Assembly (NCBI RefSeq): GCF_014640615.1
Contig: NZ_BMHH01000008.1
Span: forward strand, 1-64,000
Source of the DNA: Paramesorhizobium endophyticum
GTDB lineage: Bacteria > Pseudomonadota > Alphaproteobacteria > Rhizobiales > Rhizobiaceae
Length of the DNA: 64,000 bases
Reading direction: 5' to 3'
The notes under the pieces are model-generated. The model saw nothing but the letters and a program-made list of their open reading frames with translations, made no database searches and was not told where the DNA came from. This document shows, one piece after another, positions 46,288 through 60,622 of this stretch (its first letter is position 1; each line of letters begins with the position of its first letter). Position numbers and translations under genes: made by a program.

Positions 46288-46925
46288 CCCGGTTCGGCAA
46301 TGCGGCAAAGAATGGATTTCCACAGTTCGACCAGCTTCGCGCCGGCTGTTGCATCCTGATCGAAGCTCTGGTGAACGGCGATCCCGCGCAACACCGACAA
46401 GATAAGATGCAATTGCAGCGTGTCGTCACGTCGTGCCGGGTCAAAGCCTACGAGCAGCGCCACCCGTTCGTCTCGCATATCGACCCAGCGTTTCATCTCT
46501 TCGCGCAGCCTGCGTCCGAGTTCATTGTCCAGGCGGGCAGCCAGCATCAATTCGATCGAAGCGATATATCGCCTGTCGGAGAAGATGTTCTGCCACAGCC
46601 TGTCAATCAGATCGGGCAGGCTGTATCGGACCGTGTCGGGATCGGCGCCAAAAGGGTCGGTCAGTTGCCAATCTTCGTGCAGATGGCGCAACGCCGCAAC
46701 CAGCAAGTCGTTTCGGGCCGGGAACTGATGGGTGAGCGCCCCGCGCGAAACTTCGGCCCTTTCCGCAATCATCGTTGTGGAAATTCGCTCATGCCCGACT
46801 TCCGCCAGCGCTTCGAGCGTCGCCTCGCAAATCCGCTTCCTCGTGGAGGCTGACCGTTCGGCCTGCGTCTTGCGGCGCGCAACAGATACGGTTCGATTTC
46901 TGGCAGGCGAAGCGGATCTGGTCAT
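46284..46925 (-). CDS. TetR-family regulator
   Basis: This 213-residue protein has a TetR HTH (ATLEALAEVGHERISTTMIAERAEVSRGALTHQFPARNDLLVAAL, about 34-78) with a basic N-terminus, and an all-helical ligand domain. It is divergent from the amidohydrolase/ABC operon and convergent with the cysteine hydrolase. Matching operator-like motifs occur upstream of both target genes (45475 and 47078), so it probably represses both. Confidence 0.9.
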   Translation of the reverse strand: MTRSASPARNRTVSVARRKTQAERSASTRKRICEATLEALAEVGHERISTTMIAERAEVSRGALTHQFPARNDLLVAALRHLHEDWQLTDPFGADPDTVRYSLPDLIDRLWQNIFSDRRYIASIELMLAARLDNELGRRLREEMKRWVDMRDERVALLVGFDPARRDDTLQLHLILSVLRGIAVHQSFDQDATAGAKLVELWKSILCRIAEPG

Positions 46926-47077
46926 GGGAAGGCGTCTCTACAGATTGGCTCGGGTTGAAAGCAAGGCGTATTTTATCCAGAAACCGAGCGCATGCAAGGC
47001 AACGATACATTCCTATGCGCCGGAAAATATCGATAAAACAAACATTTGCTGGCTCTCTCTAAAAGATACAGACCATC

Positions 47078-47093
47078 CTGTTTTTTATAGACA
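47078..47093. promoter_or_regulatory. Shared operator-like motif, copy 2
   Basis: CTGTTTTTTATAGACA, followed by CCGGCG, lies 86 bases upstream of the amidohydrolase start and 153 bases from the divergent TetR start. It is nearly identical to the 45475 element, including the CGGCG tail. Confidence 0.5.
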
Positions 47094-47163
47094 CCGGCGG
47101 GAAATCATGCAGAATGAACGAAAGATAAACGCCGACGAACGGCGCAGAATGGGGAATGCAAGC

Positions 47164-48396
47164 ATGAACAATTATGTGTTTTTCGGCGGCCGGATTCTGG
47201 ATGTGGACGAAGGCGTCCTCAAGGATGGACTGGAAGTTCTGGTAGAGGGTGAGCGCATCACGCGCGTCAGCCAGCAGGCCATTGAGATGCCGGACGCCAC
47301 GCGCATTGATCTGGGCGGACGCACGCTGATGCCTGGACTTGTCGATGCCCATGTCCATGTCGTCGCCACGCTTGTGGATCTTTCCCAGAACGCCGCATTG
47401 CCGACATCGCTTATTGCCTTGCGCAGCGCCGGCATTATGCACGACATGCTCATGCGCGGTTTCACCACCGTGCGCGATCTTGCCGGAGCCGACCTTGGGC
47501 TGAAACTTGCGATCGAAGAAGGTACGATTCAGGCACCGCGCCTGGTGATCTGCGGCAAAGCGCTCAGCCAGACCGTCGGCCATGGCGACTATCGCGCCCG
47601 CTATGATAATCGCCCCCTGCATGAAGCGCGCCTTGGCGGTCTTGCCCGCCTTGCAGACGGCGTCGACGCGGTTCGGCGAGCGGCGCGCGAAGAGATCAAG
47701 AATGGCGCTCAATTCATCAAGATCATGGCCAATGGCGGCGTGGCTTCGCCCAACGATCCCATCCACGTCCTGCAATATTCGCGCGATGAAATCCGCGCCA
47801 TCGTCGAGGAGGCGGAGAATTATGGTCTCTATGTCGCCGCGCACACCTATTCCGATGCTTCCATTCGTCGGGCCGTTGAATGCGGCGTGAGGTCGCTTGA
47901 ACACTGCAATCTCATAACAGCTGAGACCGCTCGCCTGGCAGCTGAAGCTGGCGCGATCGCCTGTCCAACCCTGGTCGCCTATGAGGGATTGGCGCTCGAA
48001 GGCGCCGCCTTCGGCCTCAACCCGGATTCGCAAGCCAAAATCGATACGGTTCGCCGTGGAGGCCTGGAATCGCTCGCCATCATGCGGGATGCCGGCTTGC
48101 CAATGGCTTTCGGCTCCGACCTCCTCGGACAACTACACAAATATCAGTCGATGGAGTTCTCGCTGCGCACCAGGGTATTGCCGAACAGCGATGTGCTCCA
48201 TTCGGCAACCCGGGTTTCGGCGCAGCTTTGCGGAATGGAAAATGAGATCGGGGTCATTGCGCCCGGCGCCTATGCCGATCTCCTGATCATTGATGGCAAC
48301 CCGCTCGATGACATCACTACGTTGGAGCGCCATGATCAGTGTCTGGCCGCCGTCATGAAGGGTGGGGTTTTCCACAAAAACACCATCACGGGGTAA
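47164..48396 (+). CDS. Metal-dependent amidohydrolase (imidazolonepropionase/prolidase-like)
   Basis: This 410-residue TIM-barrel hydrolase has the metal motif LVDAHVHVV, a carboxylated-Lys candidate in QFIKIMANGGVASP, His in YVAAHTYSD and SLEHCNLI, and the catalytic Asp in MAFGSDLLGQLH, ending with the typical APGAYADLLIIDGNPL. Members of this branch hydrolyse cyclic amides, dipeptides or carbamates. ATG 47164 follows GGGGAATGC. The next gene, an ABC permease, starts 5 bases downstream. The substrate is unknown. Confidence 0.88.
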   Translation: MNNYVFFGGRILDVDEGVLKDGLEVLVEGERITRVSQQAIEMPDATRIDLGGRTLMPGLVDAHVHVVATLVDLSQNAALPTSLIALRSAGIMHDMLMRGFTTVRDLAGADLGLKLAIEEGTIQAPRLVICGKALSQTVGHGDYRARYDNRPLHEARLGGLARLADGVDAVRRAAREEIKNGAQFIKIMANGGVASPNDPIHVLQYSRDEIRAIVEEAENYGLYVAAHTYSDASIRRAVECGVRSLEHCNLITAETARLAAEAGAIACPTLVAYEGLALEGAAFGLNPDSQAKIDTVRRGGLESLAIMRDAGLPMAFGSDLLGQLHKYQSMEFSLRTRVLPNSDVLHSATRVSAQLCGMENEIGVIAPGAYADLLIIDGNPLDDITTLERHDQCLAAVMKGGVFHKNTITG

Positions 48397-48401
48397 CCGC
48401 C

Positions 48402-49226
48402 ATGATCCGGGGCAATTCTCTTTCCGAGCGCCTTGGACGATTGGGAACCGCAGCTGTCATCGCGACTGGCCTGGCGCTGATGCTCCTGCCGCTGGTCTTG
48501 GTTTTCTGGCTGTCCATCATCTCGAACGAGATCCTCTCGCTTCCCGTCGAGGGCTATTCGTTACACTGGTTCTCGGAGGCTTTCCGTCAGCCGCAATTCC
48601 TGAGCGGTTTTTTGCTTTCGGTCGCGGTTGCCGCCTTTGCAATGCTTGCAGGGCTTTTGGTATCGGTGCCCGCCGCAATCGTCATCATTCGCCGGCAATT
48701 CACCGGACGTGGCGCGCTGATCCAGCTTCTCATGTCACCACTGACCGTCCCTGCCATCGTCATCGGGGCAGCGCTTTACGTGACCGTGGTCGAGATAGAG
48801 ATTGCGTCGGGACTGCCATTGACCGGTTCAACCGTGGTTTTCGTTGCAGGCCACGTCCTTTTAACCATCCCCTGGTGCATAAGATTGCTGCTTGCCTCGC
48901 TCGAAGGCGTCAACCTTACCATCGAGGAGGCCGCGGCCTCGCTTGGCGCGCGTCCGGCGAGCGTGGTCTGGCTTGTGACCCTGCCGCTCATCCGACCCGG
49001 AATCTTCGCGGCCGCCGTATTCTCCTTCGTCGTCAGCTTCGGCAATCTTGAGGTTTCGATCTTCCTGTCGAGTCCGGGCCAGGTCACCCTTCCCGTCGCT
49101 ATGATGCAATATCTGGAATGGAAGATTGACCCAACCATTGCAGCCGTATCGTTGCTGCAGGTGGTCTTCGTGGCGTTGATGCTGGTTCTCTCCAACCGCT
49201 TTGTCAATATTTCGAGGATGGTCTGA
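48402..49226 (+). CDS. ABC transporter permease, PotC type
   Basis: This 274-residue inner-membrane protein has six hydrophobic segments and the spermidine/putrescine-type features: the N-terminal LMLLPLVLVFWLSI, GYSLHWFSEAFRQPQF, and the EAA loop IEEAAASLGARPASVVWLVTLPLIRPG. It follows the amidohydrolase by 5 bases and overlaps the ATPase gene by TGATG. The partner permease lies three genes further on, an unusual split order. Confidence 0.9.
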   Translation: MIRGNSLSERLGRLGTAAVIATGLALMLLPLVLVFWLSIISNEILSLPVEGYSLHWFSEAFRQPQFLSGFLLSVAVAAFAMLAGLLVSVPAAIVIIRRQFTGRGALIQLLMSPLTVPAIVIGAALYVTVVEIEIASGLPLTGSTVVFVAGHVLLTIPWCIRLLLASLEGVNLTIEEAAASLGARPASVVWLVTLPLIRPGIFAAAVFSFVVSFGNLEVSIFLSSPGQVTLPVAMMQYLEWKIDPTIAAVSLLQVVFVALMLVLSNRFVNISRMV

Positions 49227-50281
49227 TGGCAGATGTCGAAATCACGGGATTGACGAAGACTTATGGGCCGTTTCGCGCCGTTTCCAACCTGACGCTGCAG
49301 GTAAACGAAGGCGAGTTCATGATCTTCCTCGGCCCCTCGGGCTGCGGCAAGACCACGACGCTGCGAATGCTTGCCGGCTTTATCGCGCCGGACACAGGAA
49401 GCCTCCGGCTCGGCGCGAAAGATATCACCCATGAACCTCCATACCGCCGCAACATCGGCCTGGTGTTCCAGAATTATGCGCTCTTCCCGCATCTCAATAT
49501 CTTCGAAAACGTCGCATTCGGGTTGCGGCGGCGAAAAATTGCCGAGCCGGAACTGAAAAGCCGCGTGGCCGCCGCGCTTGACCTCGTGGACCTGCCGCAT
49601 CTGGCGGACCGCTTGCCTAAACAATTGTCGGGCGGCCAGCAGCAGCGTGTAGCGATTGCGCGGGCCATCGCTATCCGGCCCGACATTCTGTTGCTCGACG
49701 AACCGCTGTCCAATCTCGATGCGCGGTTGCGGCTCCAGGTCCGCGACGAATTGCGCAGCCTGCAAAAATCATTGGGCATTACGACGATCATGGTGACCCA
49801 TGATCAGGAGGAAGCGATGTCTGTTGGAGATCGCCTCGTTTTGATGCGCGCCGGCGAGATCGAACAGGTCGGCACGGCAAAAGAGCTTTACAACCAGCCT
49901 GTCAACCGCTTTGTCGCCGATTTCATCGGCCGCACCAATTTCATTCAGGGAAAAGGATCTGGCCGCGGGCTCTTTACCACACCAGGCGGTGTCGAGCTCA
50001 CCACATCCCATTATCAGCCTGATGCGACCGAGGCGCTCATCCGGCCCGAGGCTCTCCGCCTCAGCCGCGTGACCGTCCCTTCGGCGCCAAATAATCTGGC
50101 TGTACGCATAGTGAATTCCGTCTTCCTTGGCGGAATGGTCGAGGTCGGGCTTGTCTTGGCCGATGGCCAACATCTGACCGCGGTGACCTCACCGCGGGAA
50201 CTCACGGAGGCGGGGATAGAACTTGTCCCCGGCAGCTCGGTAATGATCAGCATCGCGTCCACCGACGTCGTGTTGCTGTAA
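49226..50281 (+). CDS. ABC transporter ATP-binding protein, PotA type
   Basis: This 351-residue ATPase has Walker A GPSGCGKTT, the Q-loop LVFQNYALFPHLNIFENV, signature LSGGQQQR, Walker [17 protein letters not shown] and a C-terminal TOBE regulatory domain (about 270-350). The sequence is of the PotA/FbpC group that imports polyamines, ferric iron or small organic acids. It sits between the first permease and the binding-protein gene. Confidence 0.94.
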   Translation: MADVEITGLTKTYGPFRAVSNLTLQVNEGEFMIFLGPSGCGKTTTLRMLAGFIAPDTGSLRLGAKDITHEPPYRRNIGLVFQNYALFPHLNIFENVAFGLRRRKIAEPELKSRVAAALDLVDLPHLADRLPKQLSGGQQQRVAIARAIAIRPDILLLDEPLSNLDARLRLQVRDELRSLQKSLGITTIMVTHDQEEAMSVGDRLVLMRAGEIEQVGTAKELYNQPVNRFVADFIGRTNFIQGKGSGRGLFTTPGGVELTTSHYQPDATEALIRPEALRLSRVTVPSAPNNLAVRIVNSVFLGGMVEVGLVLADGQHLTAVTSPRELTEAGIELVPGSSVMISIASTDVVLL

Positions 50282-50371
50282 CCGGCACTTGCCGAACCCG
50301 GCGTAAGTTCGGGAGGCAAGGGGAACGCAATCCATAACGGGAATGCAACAACCAACAATGGGAAAATCGAC

Positions 50372-51406
50372 ATGAACAGGATTAACAGACGGGACTTTGG
50401 TATCCTCACAGGCGGCCTAGTGGCTTCGGCCATGCTGCCTGCAGCCGCGCGGGCGGCGGGCCGGCTCGTCGTCGGAACATGGGGCGGAGACTATCAAAAC
50501 CTTCAGCAGATCAATATCGCCGATGGCGCCCTGAAGCAAAACGGGCTTCAGGTGATCTACGATCCGGCAAATGATACGGTACGCAAGGCCAAGCTGCTGG
50601 CCGAGCGCCGTCTGCCGCGCGGGTCGATGGATATCGCCTGCCTCACCCGGCAAGGCAGCTATGAAATGTTTGCACACGGGCTTGTCGAAGCGCTGGATGA
50701 AATCAAGGTTCCCAATCTCGGCAAGGTTCTACCATTCATTCGCACGGAATATGGGATACCGCATATCTATACGGGCCGGGTCATTCTCTATAATCCAAAA
50801 ATGGTGAACCCGGCGCCGACGTCCTACGCCGATTTGTGGAACCCTGAATATGCCGGGCGGATTGGGGTCATCGATATCCAGTACCAGACCACCATTGAGT
50901 CGGCGGCGATGATCGCCGGAGGCGGCCCTTCGAACTATGAGCCGGGTAAGGCCAAGCTTCTGGAACTGAAAAAACAGGGCGTAAAGATTTATCCGACCAA
51001 CGAAGCCATGGCGCAGGCGCTCAAATCAGGCGAGGTCGTCATGTGCATCATGTGGAATGCCCGCGGCTACATGTGGAAGAAGGCGGGCCTCGATATCGAC
51101 ATCGCGGTTCCGAAAGAAGGCATTGCGCTTTACCTGTCCGATATGTGCGTGCCAAAGAACGCTCCGAACAAGGATGCTGCGTATCGCTATCTCAACGCCA
51201 TGCTCGAACAGGCGCCCCAGATGGCGTTCGCCGCGCAGATGGGATATGCGCCGACCAATTCCGAAGTCAAGCTGGATCCAGATCTCGCATCGAAGGTCGA
51301 TTATACGCCTGAACAGCGTGAGAAATTCCTGCTGCCTGATCTTGGCTATCTGGCCAAGGCGGATGCCGGTCTCCAGGATTGGTGGAACAAGGTTTTCAAG
51401 GCCTGA
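50372..51406 (+). CDS. ABC transporter substrate-binding protein, PotD-like, Tat-exported
   Basis: This 344-residue periplasmic protein has a twin-arginine signal (RINRRDFGILTGGLVASAMLPAAARA, cleavage near residue 29), unusual among the binding proteins here. The PotD-type core includes VVGTWGGDYQN, HIYTGRVILYNPKMV, SYADLWNPEYAGRIGVIDIQ and EVVMCIMWNARGYMWKKAGLDIDIAVPKEG. Tat export suggests folding before export, perhaps with its ligand or cofactor. A hairpin follows within 12 bases of the stop codon. Confidence 0.9.
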   Translation: MNRINRRDFGILTGGLVASAMLPAAARAAGRLVVGTWGGDYQNLQQINIADGALKQNGLQVIYDPANDTVRKAKLLAERRLPRGSMDIACLTRQGSYEMFAHGLVEALDEIKVPNLGKVLPFIRTEYGIPHIYTGRVILYNPKMVNPAPTSYADLWNPEYAGRIGVIDIQYQTTIESAAMIAGGGPSNYEPGKAKLLELKKQGVKIYPTNEAMAQALKSGEVVMCIMWNARGYMWKKAGLDIDIAVPKEGIALYLSDMCVPKNAPNKDAAYRYLNAMLEQAPQMAFAAQMGYAPTNSEVKLDPDLASKVDYTPEQREKFLLPDLGYLAKADAGLQDWWNKVFKA

Positions 51407-51417
51407 TCCTGCAAAAA

Positions 51418-51446
51418 CGCCTGCCCGCGACAGTGCCGGGCGGGCG
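51418..51446 (+). promoter_or_regulatory. Hairpin between binding-protein and second permease genes
   Basis: A 10-bp inverted repeat (CGCCTGCCCG against CGGGCGGGCG, one mismatch) with a 9-base loop lies just after the binding-protein stop. It lacks a T-run, so it is unlikely to be a full terminator. Confidence 0.6.
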
Positions 51447-51474
51447 GCCATCCGAATTCGTCCGAGGCCGACCG

Positions 51475-52317
51475 ATGCAACAACGATCCCTCACCGCCGC
51501 AACCCTTCTCATGCCCGCCACCGGGCTCGTCATCGTTTTCATGGCACTGCCGCTGCTCTATCTCCTGCGCTACAGCTTCAATGATTTCGTGCCGGGCGAA
51601 TTCATGGTGCAGGGCTTCACGCTCGCAAACTACGCTGCTTTCTTTTCAGACCATTATTACCTGTCGGGAATGGCCACGACATTGGTGATGGCGGGTTCGG
51701 TTACTGCGCTCTGCATCGTGCTGGCCCTGCCCTTGGCCAATTGGGTTGCACGGCAGAGCGGCACGCTCAAGACGTTGCTGCTCATGGCGATCATCCTGCC
51801 GCTGTTCATATCGAATGCCGTGCGCGCCGCTGGCTGGATGGTGGCTTTCGGCCAGACGGGCGTCCTGAACTATGCACTCGTCAAACTGGGCATTGTTTCG
51901 GCGCCCTTGACGATCATGCACACGCCGCTCGCCGTTTTCATTGGCATTACGGCTGTCAATCTTCCCTATGTCGTCCTTACCTTGCAAAGCATTTTCGAGG
52001 GGCTGGACGAGAATATCGACTACGCAGCGGCCAGCCTTGGCGCACCACCGCTACAGGCATTCATGCTGGTTCGCCTGCCGCAAATCATGCCGGGGCTGCT
52101 TGCCGCATCCGTCCTATCGTTCATCCTCGCCATGAATGCCTACGCGACGCCGGTCCTGCTCGGCGGCCCCTCTTTCCGCATGATGGCGCCGATGATCGTG
52201 ACCGAAATCCTGAGCAAGGCAAACTGGCCGCTTGGCGCAGCGCTCGCCTTCATTCTTCTCAGCGTCACGATAACGATTTCGGTGGCCGCCGGACTGTTCA
52301 TCCGACGCCGTTACTAA
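51475..52317 (+). CDS. ABC transporter permease, PotB type
   Basis: This 280-residue inner-membrane protein has six hydrophobic segments, LIVFMALPLLYLLRYSFNDF near the N-terminus, and the EAA loop IDYAAASLGAPPLQAFMLVRLPQIMPG. It pairs with the PotC-type permease at 48402. The ATG at 51475 is preferred over upstream in-frame starts that overlap the binding-protein gene. It converges with the HMG-CoA lyase gene. Confidence 0.88.
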   Translation: MQQRSLTAATLLMPATGLVIVFMALPLLYLLRYSFNDFVPGEFMVQGFTLANYAAFFSDHYYLSGMATTLVMAGSVTALCIVLALPLANWVARQSGTLKTLLLMAIILPLFISNAVRAAGWMVAFGQTGVLNYALVKLGIVSAPLTIMHTPLAVFIGITAVNLPYVVLTLQSIFEGLDENIDYAAASLGAPPLQAFMLVRLPQIMPGLLAASVLSFILAMNAYATPVLLGGPSFRMMAPMIVTEILSKANWPLGAALAFILLSVTITISVAAGLFIRRRY

Positions 52318-52421: not shown

Positions 52422-53315
52422 TCATAAGGCGCCATCAAGGATTTTTGAAATCGGCGAGACGGGATCGCGACCAAGCTTTTGGGCGGTTTCGACCGCCACA
52501 TGAGCGAGTTTTTGCAGATCGACGCCGGTCGGGATACCCATGCCCTCGAGCATGAAGACGAGTTCTTCGGTGGCAACGTTTCCGGTTGCGCCCTTCGCAT
52601 AAGGGCAGCCGCCCAGCCCGCCAACCGAAGAATCAAAGACGGTCACCCCCTCTTCCAGGCAGGCGAAGATGTTAGCCAGCGCCTGGCCGTACGTGTTGTG
52701 CTCGTGAAGCGCGATTGCCGTCATCGGGACTTCCCCTGCAACAGCTCTCACCATGGCGGCCGCCGCCTTCGGAGTCCCGATCCCGATCGTGTCGCCGAGC
52801 GAGATTTCATAGCACCCCATCGCGTGAAGGCGGCGTGCAACGCTGACGACGGAAGAAAGCGGCACCTGACCTTCATAAGGGCAGCCAAGGACGCAGGACA
52901 CGTAGCCACGGACGCGCATGCCGGCTTCGCGTGCGCCTTCGAACACGGGCATGAAGCGTTCAAAGCTTTCGATGATCGAGCAGTTGATATTCTTCTGCGA
53001 AAAGCTTTCGGATGCGGATGCGAAGATCGCGATTTCCTCAGCGCCCGCCTCACGGGCGGCCTCGAATCCTCTCAGGTTCGGAACGAGCACAGGCAGGCTG
53101 ATGCCGTCGCGGTGGCCCAGCATCGTCAGCACTTCCGCAGAATGTGCCATCTGCGGCACCCATTTCGGCGAAATGAAACTGCCGGCTTCAATTGTTCTAA
53201 GACCGGCGCCGATCAGGCCTTCAATCATCTGCACGCGGTCCGCGACGCCAAGCGACCGCGATTCGTTCTGCAGTCCGTCGCGCGGGCCAACCTCGACCAG
53301 TCGAACACTATCCAT
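52422..53315 (-). CDS. mvaB: Hydroxymethylglutaryl-CoA lyase
   Basis: This 297-residue TIM-barrel enzyme cleaves HMG-CoA to acetyl-CoA and acetoacetate. It shows the family features RLVEVGPRDGLQNE (metal-binding Asp), GSFISPKWVPQMA, GYVSCVLGCPYEG, EISLGDTIGIGTP, ALHEHNTYGQALAN (metal-binding His pair) and the active-site loop SVGGLGGCPYAKGATGN. The start at 53315 follows GGAGG. It overlaps the end of the MocR-type gene by 8 bases and is probably cotranscribed with it. In the mevalonate pathway it takes the product of the reductase encoded at 54823. Confidence 0.93.
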   Translation of the reverse strand: MDSVRLVEVGPRDGLQNESRSLGVADRVQMIEGLIGAGLRTIEAGSFISPKWVPQMAHSAEVLTMLGHRDGISLPVLVPNLRGFEAAREAGAEEIAIFASASESFSQKNINCSIIESFERFMPVFEGAREAGMRVRGYVSCVLGCPYEGQVPLSSVVSVARRLHAMGCYEISLGDTIGIGTPKAAAAMVRAVAGEVPMTAIALHEHNTYGQALANIFACLEEGVTVFDSSVGGLGGCPYAKGATGNVATEELVFMLEGMGIPTGVDLQKLAHVAVETAQKLGRDPVSPISKILDGAL

Positions 53316-54705
53316 CGTTTCCTCCATTTCTGATTTCGTCCCGCAGGAAAGCGCAAAAGCGCGGATCAGCGCCATAGGCGACGTTGACGCGCATGGCCGG
53401 CGGCATCGCGGCCTCGCGATCGGCGTAAAACACGCTTGCCGGCGCAATGAAGATGTTGGCCTTGGCCGCCCTGAGGCAGAAAGCGGTTTCGTCCAGCGTC
53501 GCCGGAAGCGGCACCCAGATGTAAAAGCCCTGCACTTTCGGAAGCGAGACTTCCAGTCCCACGGCGGTGAGAGCCTGCGCGGTCGCTTTCGCGCCATCCT
53601 CGATCCACCCGCGCAGGCGTCTCAGGTTCTTGAGATACTGACCGCTCTCGATCATCTCCAGCACGACCCGCTCAACATGCAGGGACGTGGCGACCATGGT
53701 GATCATCTTCAGATCGACGAGACTGCGGATCGTCTCGGGCGCGCCTGCAACATAGCCGCAGCGCAGGCTCGCCGACAGCGTCTTGGAAAACGACCCGACA
53801 TAGAGAACGCGCTGCTGCTGACCGAAGGCTGCAAGCCGAGGCAGGGTCGGAGCGATCAGATCGGCGAAGATATCGTCTTCGACCAGCCGAAAGTCGTGGA
53901 CTTCCGCCATCTGCAGAAGGGCGAAGGCATGGGCGGGCGACAAGGTGCCGCCGGTCGGGTTGTGCGCCTGGCTCTGGGTGAAGAACAGTTTTGGCCGGTG
54001 GCTGACGAGCTTCTGGCGGAGTTCGTCGAGATCGGGGCCGTCCTGCAGCCGGCGGATCGGAACGACATTTGCCTTGGCCAGCCGGAGCTTTGCATAGAGA
54101 GGATAATATCCCGGGCTATCGACGAACACCGTATCGCCGGGCTCCAGAAAATGCCGGATAATCAGGTCCAGGCCGTGATTGACGCCGCTTGTCAGCATGA
54201 CGCCATCCGGCTCGGTCGTGATTGAACGCTCGGCAAGCGAAACCCGAAGCCATTCCCGTAGCGCGCCGAGGCCCCAGGAACTGCCATATCCGAAATCCAC
54301 CTCTGCGGTTGCATTGCGGCTCGTGCGCAGGATCCGGCGCATGTCGGAATCTTCGGTCCAGCTGACCGGTGGCCGGCCATCGCCTGGCCGCGTCTTGTAG
54401 TTCTGGTCGAGTTGCTCCCTCAACAGCGACATGATGCCGGTCGCCTCGGTGACATCAGGTCTTACCCGCGGCGCCGGCGCCGGCCGATTCTCCGAGACGT
54501 AATAGCCAGAGCCCTGCCGCGCGATTGCGAGTCCGCGCGCAACGAGCCGGTCGTAGGCTTCCGCCATCGTGTTCTTGGAGACGCCGAACTGCTCGGCCCC
54601 TCCCCGGACAGACGGCAGTTTTTGACCCGCCTTGTAGAGCCCCGAGGCAATCTGCCCGCTCACATGGGCGATGATATTATCGACCACTTTCACCGATCGT
54701 CCCAC
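53308..54705 (-). CDS. MocR-type (GntR-aminotransferase) regulator
   Basis: This 465-residue protein joins an N-terminal GntR winged HTH (KLPSVRGGAEQFGVSKNTMAEAYDRLVARG) to a class I aminotransferase-like domain with the PLP Lys in VLYVGSFSKTLSASLRCGYV and HNPTGGT, AEVHDFRLVEDDIF. MocR proteins use the PLP domain to sense amino acids or PLP-linked ligands. It is divergent from the HMG-CoA reductase operon, with three GGGACAGT-type repeats between them, and overlaps HMG-CoA lyase. It is therefore the likely regulator of the mevalonate cluster. An active aminotransferase role is not excluded. Confidence 0.9.
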   Translation of the reverse strand: MGRSVKVVDNIIAHVSGQIASGLYKAGQKLPSVRGGAEQFGVSKNTMAEAYDRLVARGLAIARQGSGYYVSENRPAPAPRVRPDVTEATGIMSLLREQLDQNYKTRPGDGRPPVSWTEDSDMRRILRTSRNATAEVDFGYGSSWGLGALREWLRVSLAERSITTEPDGVMLTSGVNHGLDLIIRHFLEPGDTVFVDSPGYYPLYAKLRLAKANVVPIRRLQDGPDLDELRQKLVSHRPKLFFTQSQAHNPTGGTLSPAHAFALLQMAEVHDFRLVEDDIFADLIAPTLPRLAAFGQQQRVLYVGSFSKTLSASLRCGYVAGAPETIRSLVDLKMITMVATSLHVERVVLEMIESGQYLKNLRRLRGWIEDGAKATAQALTAVGLEVSLPKVQGFYIWVPLPATLDETAFCLRAAKANIFIAPASVFYADREAAMPPAMRVNVAYGADPRFCAFLRDEIRNGGNDG

Positions 54706-54714
54706 CTTTCATCT

Positions 54715-54777
54715 GGGACAGTGCCCGCAATTAATCGGTCAACTGTCCCTTGCCTCGCGGTCGCATTCTAGGACAGT
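54715..54777. promoter_or_regulatory. GGGACAGT repeats, probable MocR operator
   Basis: Three copies of a GGGACAGT-type box lie in the divergent region: GGGACAGT at 54715-54722, its inverse ACTGTCCC at 54742-54749 and GGACAGT at 54771-54777. MocR regulators typically bind paired direct and inverted boxes between divergent genes, which fits control of both the mvaA-type operon and the regulator itself. Confidence 0.6.
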
Positions 54778-54822
54778 TTGCTCCCGACGCAAGCTTAGAT
54801 GTATTGGTTTTGGAGTGAGCCA

Positions 54823-56115
54823 TTGACAAAAAAGACCGCAACATCGCGTATCGAGAATATGCGAAATCTGTCTCCTGCCGAGCGGCTGGAGCAGGTTGCC
54901 GCGGCAACGCAGATGGACGATCGGACGAAAGCTGTTCTTGCCGCCCCTGACGCCCTGTCTGTCGAGCGTGCCAACGGCATGATCGAAAACGTGATCGGGA
55001 CGTTCCAGCTTCCCCTCGGCGTGGCGACGAACTTTCTCGTTAATGGCCGGGACTACCTCGTGCCGATGGCTGTCGAGGAACCTTCGGTCGTTGCCGCCGC
55101 CTCCTACATGGCGCGTATCGTTCGCGGCTGCGGCGGTTTCCAGACCTCGTCCACGGCGCCGATCATGCGCGCCCAGGTCCAGATCATCGGCCTGTCTGAT
55201 CCGTACGGTGCGCGGCTGGCGATCCTTTCCGCGCGCGATGAAATCGTTACGTCCGCAAATTCCAAGGATCCGGTGCTTGTGAAGTTCGGCGGCGGCTGCC
55301 GCGACATCGAAGTGCATGTGTTCCCATCGACCTCCCGCGGCCCGATGGTCGTCGTGCATCTGCTGGTCGACGTCCGCGACGCGATGGGCGCCAACACCGT
55401 TAACACCATGGCCGAAGCCATCGCACCAATCGTCGAGCGGGTCACCGGGGGCGAAGTCCGGCTTCGCATTCTCTCGAACCTCGCGGATCTGCGGCTTGTG
55501 AGAGCCCGCGTAGAACTGACAGAGGAAGCCCTCGTCACGAAGGAGTTCTCGGGGCGCCGGATGATGGAGGGCATCGTAGACGCGTATGAATTCGCGGCCG
55601 TCGATCCCTACCGCGCCGCGACGCACAACAAAGGCATCATGAACGGTGTCGACCCGGTGGTCGTCGCGACCGGAAACGATTGGCGGGCGATCGAGGCCGG
55701 CGCCCATGCATATGCCGCACGCTTGGGTCGCTATACCTCGCTGACGACTTGGGAAATCAGCGCCAAGGGGACGCTTGTCGGCACTATCGAGATGCCAATG
55801 GCGCTGGGCCTGGTCGGCGGAGCAACAAAGACACATCCGACAGCACAGGCGGCGTTGCAGATCCTGAACGTCGGTTCGGCCGTGGAACTTGCTGAAGTGA
55901 CGGTCGCGGTTGGTCTTGCACAGAACATGGCAGCCCTTCGCGCACTCGCCACCGAAGGCATACAACGTGGCCATATGGCGCTGCATGCGCGCAACATCGC
56001 GATCGGCGCCGGCGCCGTGGGCGAAGAGATCGATGCGGTTGCACGCAGGCTGGCCGCCGATCATGACGTTCGCTCCACCCGCGCAGAGGAAATCCTCGAC
56101 GAACTGCGAAAGTAA
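54823..56115 (+). CDS. mvaA: Hydroxymethylglutaryl-CoA reductase, class II (degradative)
   Basis: This 430-residue enzyme oxidises mevalonate to HMG-CoA in catabolism. The sequence closely follows the Pseudomonas mevalonii type: [19 protein letters not shown], the catalytic Glu in [26 protein letters not shown], the Lys in [26 protein letters not shown] and the catalytic His in [12 protein letters not shown] 54823 follows TGGAG and gives about the length of the known enzyme; ATG 54799 adds eight residues but lacks a site. Rhizobia make isoprenoids by the MEP route, so a biosynthetic role is unlikely. Confidence 0.93.
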
Positions 56116-56215
56116 ACTGAAACCGGCAGTCGCGCAAAGGAGGAGCTTCGCCCGACTACCCGGCCACTTGCTGGCCATTTTTTCCGGTCGAGTGGCCGGC
56201 ACCTGGGAGGGTTAG

Positions 56216-56674
56216 ATGATAGATCAGAATGTTGTGCGCGCCACCGGCCCGCACGGTCAGCTTGCCGAGGTTTGGGGAGACGTGGTGTCTCGCCCTCAAC
56301 TCGCGAAAGCAATGATTATTGGCGCCATATTGAGCGTCGTTGTCTACTACGTCACGCTTGCGACGATCTCGCCGCTGGCAGCCACGCCAGCGGTCGGCAA
56401 GGCGTTGGCAATGCTTGCCGGCATTGTAGGCTCGGTCGTCAGCGGAGCCGTGTGTTCCCGGATGTTTGCACCCAAGCGCGTCGTCGTCGAGCAGGCCGAG
56501 ACAGGCACCGCCTGGCAGGCCGATATCCTTGAACAGCTTGAACAGGAGGGCGGGCCTATCGGCCGGGTGGAAGATCTTCCGCCTGTGGTGGCGCAGGAAA
56601 TGCGCGAGGTCGGGCTCTACGATCTCTTCAAGAATTACCAAGATCGTCGCGGCGTTGACAGGCAGGGGGAGTGA
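56216..56674 (+). CDS. Small membrane protein of the mevalonate cluster, unknown family
   Basis: I do not recognise this 152-residue protein. It has two hydrophobic segments (about 35-55 and 63-84) and a soluble acidic C-terminal tail of about 65 residues (EQAETGTAWQADILEQLEQEGG...). GGGAGGG precedes the start. It lies between the reductase and the TctA-like permease genes and ends one base before the permease start, so it is a good candidate accessory subunit in place of TctB. Its two-segment topology differs from the four segments of TctB. Confidence 0.75.
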   Translation: MIDQNVVRATGPHGQLAEVWGDVVSRPQLAKAMIIGAILSVVVYYVTLATISPLAATPAVGKALAMLAGIVGSVVSGAVCSRMFAPKRVVVEQAETGTAWQADILEQLEQEGGPIGRVEDLPPVVAQEMREVGLYDLFKNYQDRRGVDRQGE

Positions 56675-56675
56675 C

Positions 56676-58058
56676 ATGGACGGTATGATGTATGAAATAG
56701 TCATGGCCGTATCTCTCGGCCTTCTCGGAGCCATCCTGTTTTCCGCCATCGGCCTGATTTCAGGGACGGACGAAACCACCACCATCGCCCCAGTCACCCT
56801 TCTCGTCGTTCTTCTGGGGGCGCCGCCGGTCGCGGTCTTCACCTTCTGGATGTGCTCGGCGATTTCCAAGCACATGACCCATGCGGTGCCGACGGCGCTC
56901 CTCGGCATTCCGGGCGACACCATGGCGCTACCGCTTCTGCAGCAGGCCACCGCACTTCGCAATCTCGGCGCACCACATGTGGCGCTCCGCAAGATGCTGG
57001 CGGGCTCCGTCATATCGGCCTTCATTGCGATACCGCTTGCAGTTCTGTTCGCCGTCATCCTGGCGCCTTTCGGCAGCTATATCACCGCATCGGCCCCATG
57101 GCTCTTCATCGGGGCGGCACTCATCATTGCCTATTTCTCGGCCGGCCGCTGGGCTTCGGTCGTCGCACTGGTCCCGTTCACGCTGCTGATTATTGCTTTG
57201 CAGGGCTTCACCGCAGCGCATAACGTCAAGCTCGGCGTCAGCTATTTTCTCGGTATCGCCGTCGGGCCGCTGGTGGCGGAGCTGTTTTCCGCAATTTCGC
57301 CGCTCGAGCAGAAACGTATGAACCGCAACCAGTTGCGCCAGACCACGCTTGCGCCAGACGTGAAGGGCTGGGGCGGCTATTTCCCTAACCCATTCCGCGT
57401 GCTCGACAAGAGCCAGGTGGTGACGACGGCGACAGCCGCCGCCGTGACCAGCGCGACATTCGTGTTCAGCCCGGTCGCCGTAACCGTGATCGCCGGCGAA
57501 ATCGTCGGCGCGCGCATCAAGCACGCCTATCATCGCCTGACCTCCGTGCTCGCCGTTCGTAATGGCGTGACGGAATCGACCTACATTGCCGAAGCGCTGA
57601 TCCCGCTGATCGCTTTCGGTCTGCCACTCAGCCCAGTCGCCGCCGGGCCGGCCGCACCGCTGTTCAACGCACCACCGCGTTTCACGGTCGATACCGGAAC
57701 CGGCGTCGTCAACAACCTGCACACAATGATGTCGGTCTCCGAGTTCCTGATCTGGGGCCTGATCTCCGTCGTCATTGCCGCCGCCATCGCCTACCCCTTC
57801 GCAATGAACCACGCGCGCAGCGCCGCAGCGTTCGTGGCAAAGTACATTAGCCATGAAGCCATCATCGCCACCTTCGTCGGCCTCATCCTGGTGATCGGCC
57901 TCTGGGAGGGCGGACTGCTGGCCCTGCTGGTCATTGTCACCGTCGGCCTCGTCGGCGGCCTGCTTTACCGCGTGCTCGGAATGAACACCGGCGTGCAATT
58001 CATGGGCTATTACGCTGCGATCCTCAGTGTTCCGGCGATCCTGAAGCTGATCGGCTGA
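56676..58058 (+). CDS. TctA-like permease, probable mevalonate transporter
   Basis: This 460-residue membrane protein has about 11 hydrophobic segments and TctA-like elements: GLISGTDETTTIAPVTLLVVLLGAPP in the first quarter and THAVPTALLGIPGDTMALPLLQQA after it. TctA proteins are the large permease of tripartite tricarboxylate transporters, which normally need a TctC binding protein. None is encoded here. ATG 56676 follows AGGGGGAG. The position between HMG-CoA reductase and the lactonase gene suggests that it imports mevalonate. Confidence 0.72.
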   Translation: MDGMMYEIVMAVSLGLLGAILFSAIGLISGTDETTTIAPVTLLVVLLGAPPVAVFTFWMCSAISKHMTHAVPTALLGIPGDTMALPLLQQATALRNLGAPHVALRKMLAGSVISAFIAIPLAVLFAVILAPFGSYITASAPWLFIGAALIIAYFSAGRWASVVALVPFTLLIIALQGFTAAHNVKLGVSYFLGIAVGPLVAELFSAISPLEQKRMNRNQLRQTTLAPDVKGWGGYFPNPFRVLDKSQVVTTATAAAVTSATFVFSPVAVTVIAGEIVGARIKHAYHRLTSVLAVRNGVTESTYIAEALIPLIAFGLPLSPVAAGPAAPLFNAPPRFTVDTGTGVVNNLHTMMSVSEFLIWGLISVVIAAAIAYPFAMNHARSAAAFVAKYISHEAIIATFVGLILVIGLWEGGLLALLVIVTVGLVGGLLYRVLGMNTGVQFMGYYAAILSVPAILKLIG

Positions 58059-58098
58059 TCCAGCCGCTCGGCCTTGTGGCAAAATGGGAGGAGAGAAT

Positions 58099-59118
58099 AT
58101 GAACCGACTGGCGCACATGTCAGCTCTGGGCGCGGCACTGATCCTGATCGGTGTTGCTGCTCACGCGGCCGACGATACCGCAACGCTTCCAGCCTTGGAC
58201 ATCCCGCGGGCGCTTCGAAGCGCCGTACCTCTGCCGATGGCGGAAGCCGACTTGCCGTCTGTCGAGGCCAGGGAATACTTTAAGGTTTCCGAAAAAGGCC
58301 TGCAGCTCGAATGCCCGACATTCGATGCGAAGGGTGATCTCCTGTTCTGCGAAGTCTTCGGCGGAACGGTGTTTCGCCTGACCCCGGACAGGCAGCTTTC
58401 GAGTTTCGTGCCGAACCCGCAACTGCGCCCCGCCGGACTTGCGGTTGGCCGCAATGGCCGCATCTACATGGCCGAACTCGGGGACTTCAAGTCGCGTGGA
58501 TCAGTGGTCACCACGGCACCCGACGGTAGCGACGTCCAGACCATCGTGTCGAGAGATGACGGTTTTCTGCCTGACGACCTTGTCTTCAACAAGGATGGCG
58601 GATTTTATTTCACCGACTTCAAGGGTGGTTCCAGCACGCCCTCCGGCGGCGTCTATTACCTCGGTCCCGGTGGAGGCAAGCCGGTTCCGGTCGTGCCCGA
58701 TCTCCGGATCGCCAACGGTATCGGTCTCAGCCCAGACGGCAAGACGCTGTGGGTGACGGAGTTAGCCGGCGGCCAGTTGCACCGGATTTCGCTCGCAGAC
58801 GCCACCACCATCGCACCGTTCGGATCATCGGTCGTCTACAATTTTGTCGGCGGCGGCCCGGACTCCATCCGCGTCGATGCCGACGGCAACGTCTATGTGG
58901 CGATGTATGGTCAGGGGCGGATCATGGTATTCAATCCGCTCGGCTTCCCGATCGGCCAGTACCTGCTGCCCGGCCGCGATGACGGGCACAATCTGCGCTC
59001 GACCTCCATGGTCATTCGCCCCGGCACAGACGAACTGCTGATTTTCACGAACGATTGGGACAAAGGTCAAGGCTCGACCATCTTCGTAGCTAAGGCAGTT
59101 GCCAAAGCAGCGCCATAA
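58099..59118 (+). CDS. Secreted SMP-30/Drp35-type lactonase
   Basis: This 339-residue beta-propeller protein has a signal peptide (MNRLAHMSALGAALILIGVAAHA, cleavage near residue 23) and the calcium-dependent lactonase signature set: DLLFCEVFGGTVFRL with metal-binding Glu, PDDLVFNKDGGFYFTDF, IANGIGLSPDGKTLWVTE with metal-binding Asn, and GPDSIRVDADGNVYVAMYGQGR with catalytic Asp. The last two blocks strongly resemble Drp35, a lactonase. GGGAGGAGAG precedes ATG 58099. In this cluster the natural substrate is probably mevalonolactone, opened in the periplasm before uptake. Gluconolactone or other lactones are alternatives. Confidence 0.82.
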   Translation: MNRLAHMSALGAALILIGVAAHAADDTATLPALDIPRALRSAVPLPMAEADLPSVEAREYFKVSEKGLQLECPTFDAKGDLLFCEVFGGTVFRLTPDRQLSSFVPNPQLRPAGLAVGRNGRIYMAELGDFKSRGSVVTTAPDGSDVQTIVSRDDGFLPDDLVFNKDGGFYFTDFKGGSSTPSGGVYYLGPGGGKPVPVVPDLRIANGIGLSPDGKTLWVTELAGGQLHRISLADATTIAPFGSSVVYNFVGGGPDSIRVDADGNVYVAMYGQGRIMVFNPLGFPIGQYLLPGRDDGHNLRSTSMVIRPGTDELLIFTNDWDKGQGSTIFVAKAVAKAAP

Positions 59119-59244
59119 CGCGTTCACGGGGAACGCCTGTCAGGGGCGTATGACGGCCCACGCTGCTCACTTCCCTGCGGACCGCGAGAGCGACCCTACG
59201 GTCAATGACACTACCGGCTCACTTTAATAAGCACGGAGGAAAAA

Positions 59245-59958
59245 TTGAGGAAAATAGTATCAGGCGCCTCCGAGGCGCTGGCCGATATTCTCGTTGATGG
59301 CATGACTATCATGTCGGGTGGCTTTGGCCTTTGTGGCATTCCATCGGCGCTGATCGAGGCGATCCGGGTTTCTGGCGTGACGGATCTCACCGTTATATCG
59401 AACAATGCCGGCGTCGACGGGTGTGGACTCGGCCTGCTTCTTGAAAGCAGGCAGATCAGCAAGATGTTCTCGTCTTATGTCGGCGAGAATAAGCTCTTCG
59501 CGCAGCAATATCTGTCCGGCGATCTGGAACTGGAATTCAACCCACAGGGCACCTTGGCTGAACGAATCCGGGCCGGCGGAGCAGGCATCCCGGCCTTTTT
59601 TACGAGGACTGGCGTCGGCACACTCGTGGCTGAAGGAAAAGAACTCCGCCGGTTCGGTGAAAACGATTATGTAATGGAGACCGGCTTGTTTGCCGATCTT
59701 GCAGTCATTCATGCCTGGAAGGGCGATACGGAAGGCAACCTTGTGTACCGGAAGACGGCGCGGAATTTCAATCCGATCATGGCGACAGCTGCCAGCATAA
59801 CTGTTGCGGAGGTTGAAAATCTGGTCGATGTCGGAGAGATCGATCCCGATGCGGTCCATACGCCTGGGATTTACGTCCAAAAGGTCGTTCATGTCGCCTG
59901 TCCGGAAAAGCGTATCGAACAACGCACTGTACGTGCGCTGTCACAGGAGATCGCGTAA
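59245..59958 (+). CDS. scoA: 3-oxoacid CoA-transferase subunit A
   Basis: This 237-residue subunit has the CoA-transferase family I features [84 protein letters not shown] and [15 protein letters not shown]. The start is TTG at 59245, placed after a strong GGAGG. With subunit B it moves CoA from succinyl-CoA to acetoacetate, the product of HMG-CoA lyase. It ends the mevalonate operon together with scoB, after a 126-base gap from the lactonase gene. Confidence 0.92.
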
Positions 59959-59959
59959 C

Positions 59960-60622
59960 ATGGCTTGGACGCGTGAACAAATGGCGGCACGTGCCGCTCG
60001 TGAACTGCAGGATGGCTTCTACGTCAATCTTGGCATCGGCATCCCCACGCTGGTAGCCAACTTCATTCCGGACGACATCGAGGTGACGCTCCAGAGCGAG
60101 AACGGCATGCTCGGCATGGGTCCGTTCCCGTTTGAAGGCGAAGAGGACGCCGACCTTATCAACGCAGGCAAGCAGACGATAACGCAGTTGCCTAAGACGA
60201 GCTTTTTTTCGTCTGCCGACAGTTTTGCCATGATCCGCGGTGGTCATATCGATCTGTCGATCCTCGGCGCCATGCAGATCTCGCAATCTGGCGACCTTGC
60301 CAACTGGATGATCCCGGGCAAGATGGTAAAGGGCATGGGAGGCGCCATGGATCTTGTTGCAGGCGTCAAGAAGGTGGTGGTCGTCATGGAGCATGAGGCT
60401 AAGGGCGAGCCGAAGCTCCTGAAGGAGTGCACCTTGCCTCTGACCGGTCAGCGCGTCACGGACATGGTAATCACTGACCTCGCCGTTTTTCGCGTCGCCC
60501 GTACCGGTGCGCCAAAGATGGTCCTGGTGGAAATGGCTGAGGATGTCACGCTTGAGGAGATTCGCGCCAAAACGCAGGCGGAGTTCGAAGTTGGCCTAAC
60601 ATTGGATGGATCAGGCCCATGA
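59960..60622 (+). CDS. scoB: 3-oxoacid CoA-transferase subunit B
   Basis: This 220-residue subunit has the B-chain features [18 protein letters not shown], the catalytic Glu in [53 protein letters not shown] and EKxKGEPK-type [16 protein letters not shown]. The ATG lies one base after the subunit A stop codon. With scoA it yields acetoacetyl-CoA, which a thiolase elsewhere in the genome would cleave to two acetyl-CoA. The gene converges with the third UgpC-type operon. Confidence 0.93.

Follow-up and report, generated by a model that had tools for sequence, protein, structure and literature searches.

A MocR-associated gene cluster of Paramesorhizobium endophyticum proposed to serve the use of mevalonate and mevalonolactone

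Results

Gene content of the cluster

The stretch of DNA analysed here, referred to as the window, comprises 64,000 nucleotides from Paramesorhizobium endophyticum (contig NZ_BMHH01000008.1, positions 1 to 64,000). Its segment 52422-60622 carries a cluster of eight genes, all present and intact, and we propose, with a probability of about three in four, that this cluster serves utilisation of mevalonate and mevalonolactone. The genes form two divergent runs: on the minus strand, a MocR-type regulator gene followed by a gene for 3-hydroxy-3-methylglutaryl-CoA (HMG-CoA) lyase, and on the plus strand, a run from an HMG-CoA reductase gene through the gene for 3-oxoacid CoA-transferase subunit B (Table 1). 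Coordinates of the open reading frames rest on start codons picked by eye, and families were assigned via Pfam and NCBIfam profile matches. An earlier reading of the letters alone (the original prediction) had listed the reductase, the lyase, both CoA-transferase subunits, MocR, a TctA-like permease, a small membrane protein and a signal-bearing lactonase, and every one of them was identified. The genes, their residues, their linkage and the conservation of the operator were observed directly, and all functions are assigned from sequence and context. The arrangement is not a product of chance, because its core recurs in many genomes.

Table 1. Features of the cluster, with positions in the window
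Feature	Position	Strand	Evidence
HMG-CoA lyase	52422..53327	-	NF004283 421.7 bits, cut-off 246; closest solved relative 2ftp
MocR-type regulator (GntR + aminotransferase-like)	53308..54705	-	PF00392 + PF00155
Predicted MocR operator, three ACTGTCC boxes	54716..54777	.	Boxes at 54716 (-), 54742 (+), 54771 (-)
Class II degradative-type HMG-CoA reductase	54823..56115	+	TIGR00532 436.2 bits, cut-off 259.95
Small membrane protein, no named family	56216..56674	+	Pfam/NCBIfam: no match
TctA-family permease, proposed mevalonate importer	56676..58058	+	PF01970 66.4 bits, cut-off 28.9
Drp35-type lactonase (SMP-30/Drp35), signal-like N-terminus by eye	58099..59118	+	E 3e-85 to Drp35 2dg0
3-oxoacid CoA-transferase subunit A	59245..59958	+	TIGR02429 259.7 bits, cut-off 128.5
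3-oxoacid CoA-transferase subunit B	59960..60622	+	TIGR02428 323.6 bits, cut-off 243.55

The reductase is catabolic by gene content

The reductase aligned over nearly its full length with solved chains (605 bits to 6p7k and 1qax, 646 to 6dio). In the alignment to 6dio, read by eye, the EEPS, HNKG, NDWR and GHMALHARN motifs are kept, and these presumably hold the catalytic E, K, D and H of the Pseudomonas mevalonii enzyme. Among the at least 590 matches of the reductase that were listed, the closest named copy is that of Rhizobium sp. Leaf306. The TTG start at 54823 is preceded by GGAG and gives a gene as long as the annotated Rhizobium etli copy (1293 bp); an alternative start at ATG 54799 was set aside, having no visible ribosome site.

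The window's genome (4.93 Mb, with a computed completeness of 99.89%) contains a single reductase match. Three markers of the methylerythritol phosphate (MEP) pathway were tested, IspG, DRL and DXR; IspG and DRL-family proteins were found in the genome, and DXR was not. The DRL-family proteins, on contigs C11 and C22 of this genome (G000; L171, L172), point to an MEP pathway with an alternative second enzyme, and DRL in place of DXR is known for Brucella. HMG-CoA synthase was not found in the genome. Nor was any mevalonate kinase over the cut-off: the sole match was a GHMP kinase (69.6 bits vs a cut-off of 163), and a heptose kinase model gives its matched part a higher score (120 bits), which again falls short of the cut-off for that model. 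A lyase lies in the cluster and no route of mevalonate biosynthesis was seen in the genome, as would be expected of a mevalonate catabolic cluster. Because IspG and DRL are present, HMG-CoA synthase was not found and no mevalonate kinase exceeded the cut-off, we see no route that needs the reductase for isoprenoids, and by gene content the enzyme is catabolic. A Burkholderia cenocepacia reductase, called "oxidative" in the title of a reference, is of the kind that adjoins the same permease in another locus (L153).

The original prediction had called the reductase catabolic on the ground that rhizobia make isoprenoids by the MEP pathway. The match to the degradative model TIGR00532 over its cut-off, the lack of an HMG-CoA synthase match and the MEP markers bear this out. 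Its statement on the MEP pathway stands for the markers tested, with the correction that the enzyme is a DRL-family protein rather than DXR; absence of the MEP genes, which it had named as the finding that would speak against it, was checked, and IspG and DRL-family proteins are there.

The permease and a small membrane protein accompany the reductase

The small protein shows, by eye, two hydrophobic stretches followed by a soluble tail, and it gave no Pfam match up to E 0.1 and no NCBIfam match. We compared 125 reductase loci, namely the window, 36 loci from a draw of 397 genomes of the order, 80 named loci and 8 from an even draw of 398 Pseudomonadota genomes; four of them duplicate others, and family names were read from one representative per gene cluster. 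The small protein is encoded in 45 of the 80 named loci, as is the permease (likewise 45/80). An alignment of 45 rows of the small protein has 19 invariant columns, the start Met among them, and the permease alignment (37 rows) has a mean column identity of 82%. The profile made from these 37 rows found no solved relative at E 0.01.

Permease and reductase occur together in both genome draws. Among the 398 Pseudomonadota genomes, 15 have a degradative reductase over the cut-off and seven, the window's own genome included, have a permease match better than E 1e-70; all seven are within the 15 (hypergeometric P 2e-11), with permease and reductase less than 1.6 kb apart in each. Identity is 67-100% for six of the seven matches and 36% for the seventh (G440); two weaker hits (E 5.6e-4 and 8.7e-4, 24-25% identity, internal stops) were dropped. 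In the order draw, one spurious hit being dropped, the permease was found in two genomes, both among the 37 with a reductase over the cut-off (P 0.008). The co-occurrence across Rhizobiales that the original prediction had put forward as a check was seen for the permease in these two genomes.

A standard TctABC system was rejected, the cluster being without TctB and TctC: no four-helix TctB subunit is encoded in it, the small protein does not qualify as one, and no TctC binding protein is among the eight cluster genes, the rest of the genome not having been searched for TctC. Elsewhere the genome encodes six ordinary full-length TctA proteins (468-536 bits vs 65 here) and gives three partial matches. 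In three plasmid records the annotation reads 'tripartite tricarboxylate transporter permease' for the permease, 'hypothetical protein' for the small protein and 'PLP-dependent aminotransferase family protein' for the regulator. A near-copy of the core, with MocR and lyase on one side and reductase, small protein and TctA on the other, is carried by the R. etli 8C-3 plasmid pRsp8C3a, typed conjugative (L215); this copy is without lactonase and CoA-transferase.

Different transporters stand at the same place

MocR with the small protein and TctA is the commonest arrangement among the reductase loci of this sample, which is weighted towards the window's kind, and occurs in alpha-, beta- and gammaproteobacteria. 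Near the reductase, 53 of the 125 loci have a TctA-type transporter, 25 a tripartite ATP-independent periplasmic (TRAP) transporter, 12 a branched-chain-type ATP-binding cassette (ABC) transporter and 6 a ribose-type ABC transporter with a propeller fusion. On a reductase tree (121 rows, made by a quick method, with some long branches), the 93 loci with a named type show at least 9 changes of transporter type, and at least 6 changes between TctA-type and the rest. An earlier count of 23 changes had treated loci without a named transporter as a type; without them it is 9, and the lower figure is used. Shuffled labels give 34-39 changes on the same tree, far more than observed, so transporter type is also inherited. 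Different importers at one place are expected if the place serves uptake of the reductase's substrate. Among the 60 listed, out of 83, matches of the TRAP binding protein to solved structures, judged by molecule names only, none was recognised as a mevalonate binder.

In the six loci of the last type (L122:12792-14903, L050, L056, L107, L117 and L140), the ABC permease is fused to a propeller resembling SMP-30 and strictosidine synthase, as found by Pfam on one locus and by full-length matches in all six. A second propeller-like stretch lies behind the fusion in five of the six. All six fused propellers have, by eye, an E, DD, N, PD pattern resembling the metal site, and none of these loci (0/6) has a Drp35-type gene. 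Coming from a different protein line, the fused propeller hints a second time that uptake and opening of the ring may go hand in hand.

A Drp35-type lactonase at a minority of loci

The best solved match of the lactonase is Drp35 of Staphylococcus aureus, with 289 bits over query residues 35-341. The residues aligned with the Drp35 metal site are kept; we take these to be E48, D138, D236 and S237 in Drp35 numbering. Seven of the 125 loci have a lactonase at 45% identity or more near the reductase, four with TctA-type and three with TRAP-type transporters, in each case shortly downstream of the transporter genes. The carriers are alphaproteobacteria and one Pseudomonas, and lactonase presence changes at least 4 times on the reductase tree. 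A signal-like N-terminal stretch was seen by eye in six of the seven linked lactonases; the start of the seventh (L072) was not reached. S. aureus Drp35 has an activity of 478 umol/min/mg on DL-mevalonolactone, with the other lactones tested at least 100-fold less, and drp35 adjoins mevalonate genes in some staphylococci, as stated in passages of PMC6052127.

For comparison, we used 11 unlinked Drp35-like proteins. Three came from the order draw, two being identical to each other, and eight from among the 15 plasmid records with a match over most of the query; no reductase lies beside any of them within the fetched stretch of 5.9-19.8 kb. The D138 position is D in all seven linked copies, in the S. 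epidermidis protein and in a Variovorax plasmid protein, and N in the other 9 of the 11 unlinked proteins and in both outgroup rows. A lactonase tree rooted with two distant outgroup rows unites the six linked copies from alphaproteobacteria (100/100). All seven linked lactonases are not monophyletic in the best tree, though their monophyly is not rejected (p-AU 0.33).

A tie to the reductase for Drp35-like proteins in general was rejected, reductase-free homologues being common. Where their neighbours were annotated or read, Drp35-like proteins with N for D138 occur near genes for aldo-keto reductase, short-chain dehydrogenase/reductase (SDR), cupin or cyclophilin-like proteins or near paoABC (L168, L169, L170, L218, L219, L223-L226), and they perhaps belong to a second lactone pathway. 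On an R. leguminosarum plasmid, a fragment of a close lactonase relative (77% identity, 35% of the query) lies between IS6 elements (L221:6001-6354).

MocR and a predicted operator

The regulator combines a GntR head (PF00392) with an aminotransferase-like body (PF00155), as MocR proteins do; its best NCBIfam match, to PdxR, does not reach the cut-off for that model. A MocR gene is divergent from and adjacent to the reductase gene in 99 of the 125 loci and in 72 of the 80 named loci. At least one exact ACTGT[AC]C box is present in 81 of 94 divergent spacers, with a density of 8.4 per kb in spacers vs 0.064 per kb in flanks (132-fold). The A form was found in 62 spacers, the C form, which is that of the window, in 29, and both in 10. 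The 13 box-free spacers include those of the lactonase-bearing Pseudomonas fluorescens P5A and of two Burkholderia.

The motif was derived from the same spacer set, and the search was therefore repeated on random halves. In one half the most frequent 7-mer was CTGTACC, and 34-39 of the 47 spacers in the other half carry it, at 6-8 per kb vs 0.06-0.09, a test that covers the A form and not the C form of the window. Restricted to the window, a longer version of the box gives two matches, both in the spacer, vs 1.08 expected by chance. The three boxes of the spacer (54706-54822) form a predicted MocR operator. Three boxes of alternating direction are a layout described for 11% of the MocR regulons in PMC5320631; its main text has no mention of mevalonate, HMG-CoA or mva, its supplementary regulon tables not having been searched.

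Lyase, CoA-transferase and neighbouring genes

The R-D, H-x-H and CPYAKGATGN motifs of the lyase align with those of 2ftp. The start of the lyase gene overlaps the end of the MocR gene, so the two are probably co-transcribed. Near the reductase, 63 of the 125 loci have a lyase at 38% identity or more, and only two have the CoA-transferase pair. A family III CoA-transferase gene is found in some reductase clusters (L143, L146, L147, L121, L213) along with two small genes, of which one is hydratase-like (PF13452) and the other has no Pfam match; these may serve hydroxymethylglutarate or methylglutaconyl-CoA.

At 46732-52317 of the window, an amidohydrolase-like gene is followed by polyamine-type ABC transporter genes (48339-52317), heading towards the lyase gene and named by eye. 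They are probably a separate operon.

Discussion

In the route that we propose, the secreted Drp35-type lactonase would open mevalonolactone to mevalonate in the periplasm, and the TctA-like permease with its small partner would carry mevalonate across the inner membrane, presumably with an ion gradient as the driving force and no binding protein involved. The reductase, working in the oxidative direction, would convert mevalonate, CoA and 2 NAD+ to HMG-CoA, the lyase would cleave HMG-CoA to acetyl-CoA and acetoacetate, and the CoA-transferase would turn acetoacetate and succinyl-CoA into acetoacetyl-CoA. MocR may bind the three-box operator between its own gene and the reductase gene and so switch both transcripts. 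Ring opening in the periplasm and import by the TctA-like pair had both been put forward in the original prediction. The activity measured for Drp35, the D138 residue and the linkage to the reductase argue for the former; co-occurrence of permease and reductase, together with other importers at the same place, argues for the latter.

Several observations weigh against this proposal. The 80 named loci are the best 80 of at least 590, chosen by likeness to the window's reductase, and so favour the window's kind; no more than four permease candidates were scored per genome. Within about 10 kb of the reductase, 29 of the 125 loci show no transporter of these four types; 12 of the 29 were inspected, and some have other binding-protein or permease genes or reach a contig end, and some have no recognisable transporter. 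In 62 of the 125 loci the reductase has no lyase at 38% identity or more nearby, and 49 of the 53 TctA-type loci, contig-end loci included, have no lactonase within about 10 kb. Of the six genomes in the order draw with a close lactonase homologue, three have a degradative reductase over the cut-off and three do not (P 0.012 for co-occurrence). The unlinked homologues mostly adjoin genes for aldo-keto reductases, SDRs, cupins or LysR proteins, and with such neighbours the fold alone does not give the substrate. Finally, the substrate of reductase and permease could be a close analogue of mevalonate.

These points lead to other explanations. That mevalonate catabolism is right but the lactonase acts on another lactone, as a hitch-hiker downstream of the permease gene, is in our judgement unlikely. 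Such a role would fit its rarity among reductase loci (7/125), its absence from the R. etli plasmid copy and the close homologues (50-60% identity) that lie mostly near oxidoreductase genes with no reductase in the fetched stretch. However, the lactonase gene takes the same place downstream of two types of transporter, a third type bears a fused SMP-30-like propeller, and D138 is common to all seven linked copies and to Drp35, the best tested substrate of which is mevalonolactone. We give rather low odds to the idea that the permease pair is an exporter of a product or moves another compound, for example acetoacetate or 3-hydroxy-3-methylglutarate. Carboxylates are the classic cargo of TctA, several compounds of the mevalonate pathway are carboxylates, and some loci add a family III CoA-transferase (22/125) and hydratase-like genes fitting hydroxymethylglutarate or methylglutaconate. 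Yet the permease accompanies the reductase, which is needed only if mevalonate enters; in 23 of the 53 TctA-type loci no lyase was seen nearby, the reductase being there by construction; and elsewhere the reductase has binding-protein transporters near it, which as a class are importers.

A biosynthetic reductase amid unrelated genes is extremely improbable. Gram-positive cocci do use class II reductases to make mevalonate for isoprenoids, but here lyase and CoA-transferase genes are clustered with the reductase gene and the degradative model was matched. The lack of a detectable HMG-CoA synthase or of a mevalonate kinase over the cut-off, alongside the MEP markers, speaks against this role too, and we rejected it on gene content, barring missing contigs.

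Utilisation of mevalonate and mevalonolactone thus being the preferred reading, its wider form may be put as follows. We think it reasonably probable that a widespread, dedicated mevalonate importer exists, made of a TctA permease without binding protein and a new small membrane subunit; that some lineages add a secreted Drp35-type mevalonolactonase and so live on both forms; and that others use TRAP or ABC transporters, one with a fused lactonase-like propeller. The original prediction had seen a new form of the pathway in the combination of lactonase, TctA-type transport and MocR control. That combination is present, but MocR with small protein and TctA is widespread (53/125), and lactonase and CoA-transferase are optional; the earlier interpretation is partly supported. 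What is new is broader than one rhizobial cluster and would comprise a proteobacterial catabolic core, a reductase-specific TctA-type importer with its small subunit, a conserved MocR operator and, in a minority, a mevalonolactonase.

To our knowledge, most work on the degradation of mevalonate in bacteria has centred on the reductase. The locus and its relatives supply candidates for the outside half of the pathway, namely uptake, ring opening and regulation. By record titles, numerous genera associated with plants or soil are among the carriers of the at least 590 loci, pointing to mevalonate or its lactone as a real nutrient in such settings. In two beta-rhizobia, Mimosa root exudate induces lyase and CoA-transferase, termed mevalonate-pathway genes of isoprenoid catabolism; the passage of PMC5789663 on these genes names no reductase. 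A natural mevalonate importer would be useful for engineered consortia, for which a yeast monocarboxylate carrier was recently evolved into one, and import systems are stated to exist in several bacterial species (both in passages of PMC12405511). Among the matches listed in our literature search, no mevalonate cluster with MocR, TctA-type transport or a lactonase was described.

The cluster resembles known systems in its parts. Pseudomonas mevalonii degrades mevalonate via the reductase MvaA and the lyase MvaB, and the window has a reductase of the same class (605 bits to 1qax) and the same lyase step. As far as we know, accounts of the P. mevalonii operon give it a different regulator and mention no MocR protein, TctA-type permease or lactonase. 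S. aureus Drp35 (PMC6052127) is the closest solved relative of the lactonase and has the same metal-site residues, but its host makes mevalonate, whereas the lactonase of the window has a signal-like N-terminus and belongs to a catabolic operon. The permease matches the TctA family of TctABC systems (PMC5812351); unlike these, the cluster has no TctB or TctC, and a small protein of no named family stands at the TctB position. Archaeal TctA proteins also occur without TctB and TctC, according to part of the same source. In its domain make-up, the repeated boxes with a TGT group and their alternating three-box layout, the regulator with its predicted operator is like the MocR regulators of genes for catabolism of ectoine, gamma-aminobutyric acid and taurine, as these are treated in part of PMC5320631.

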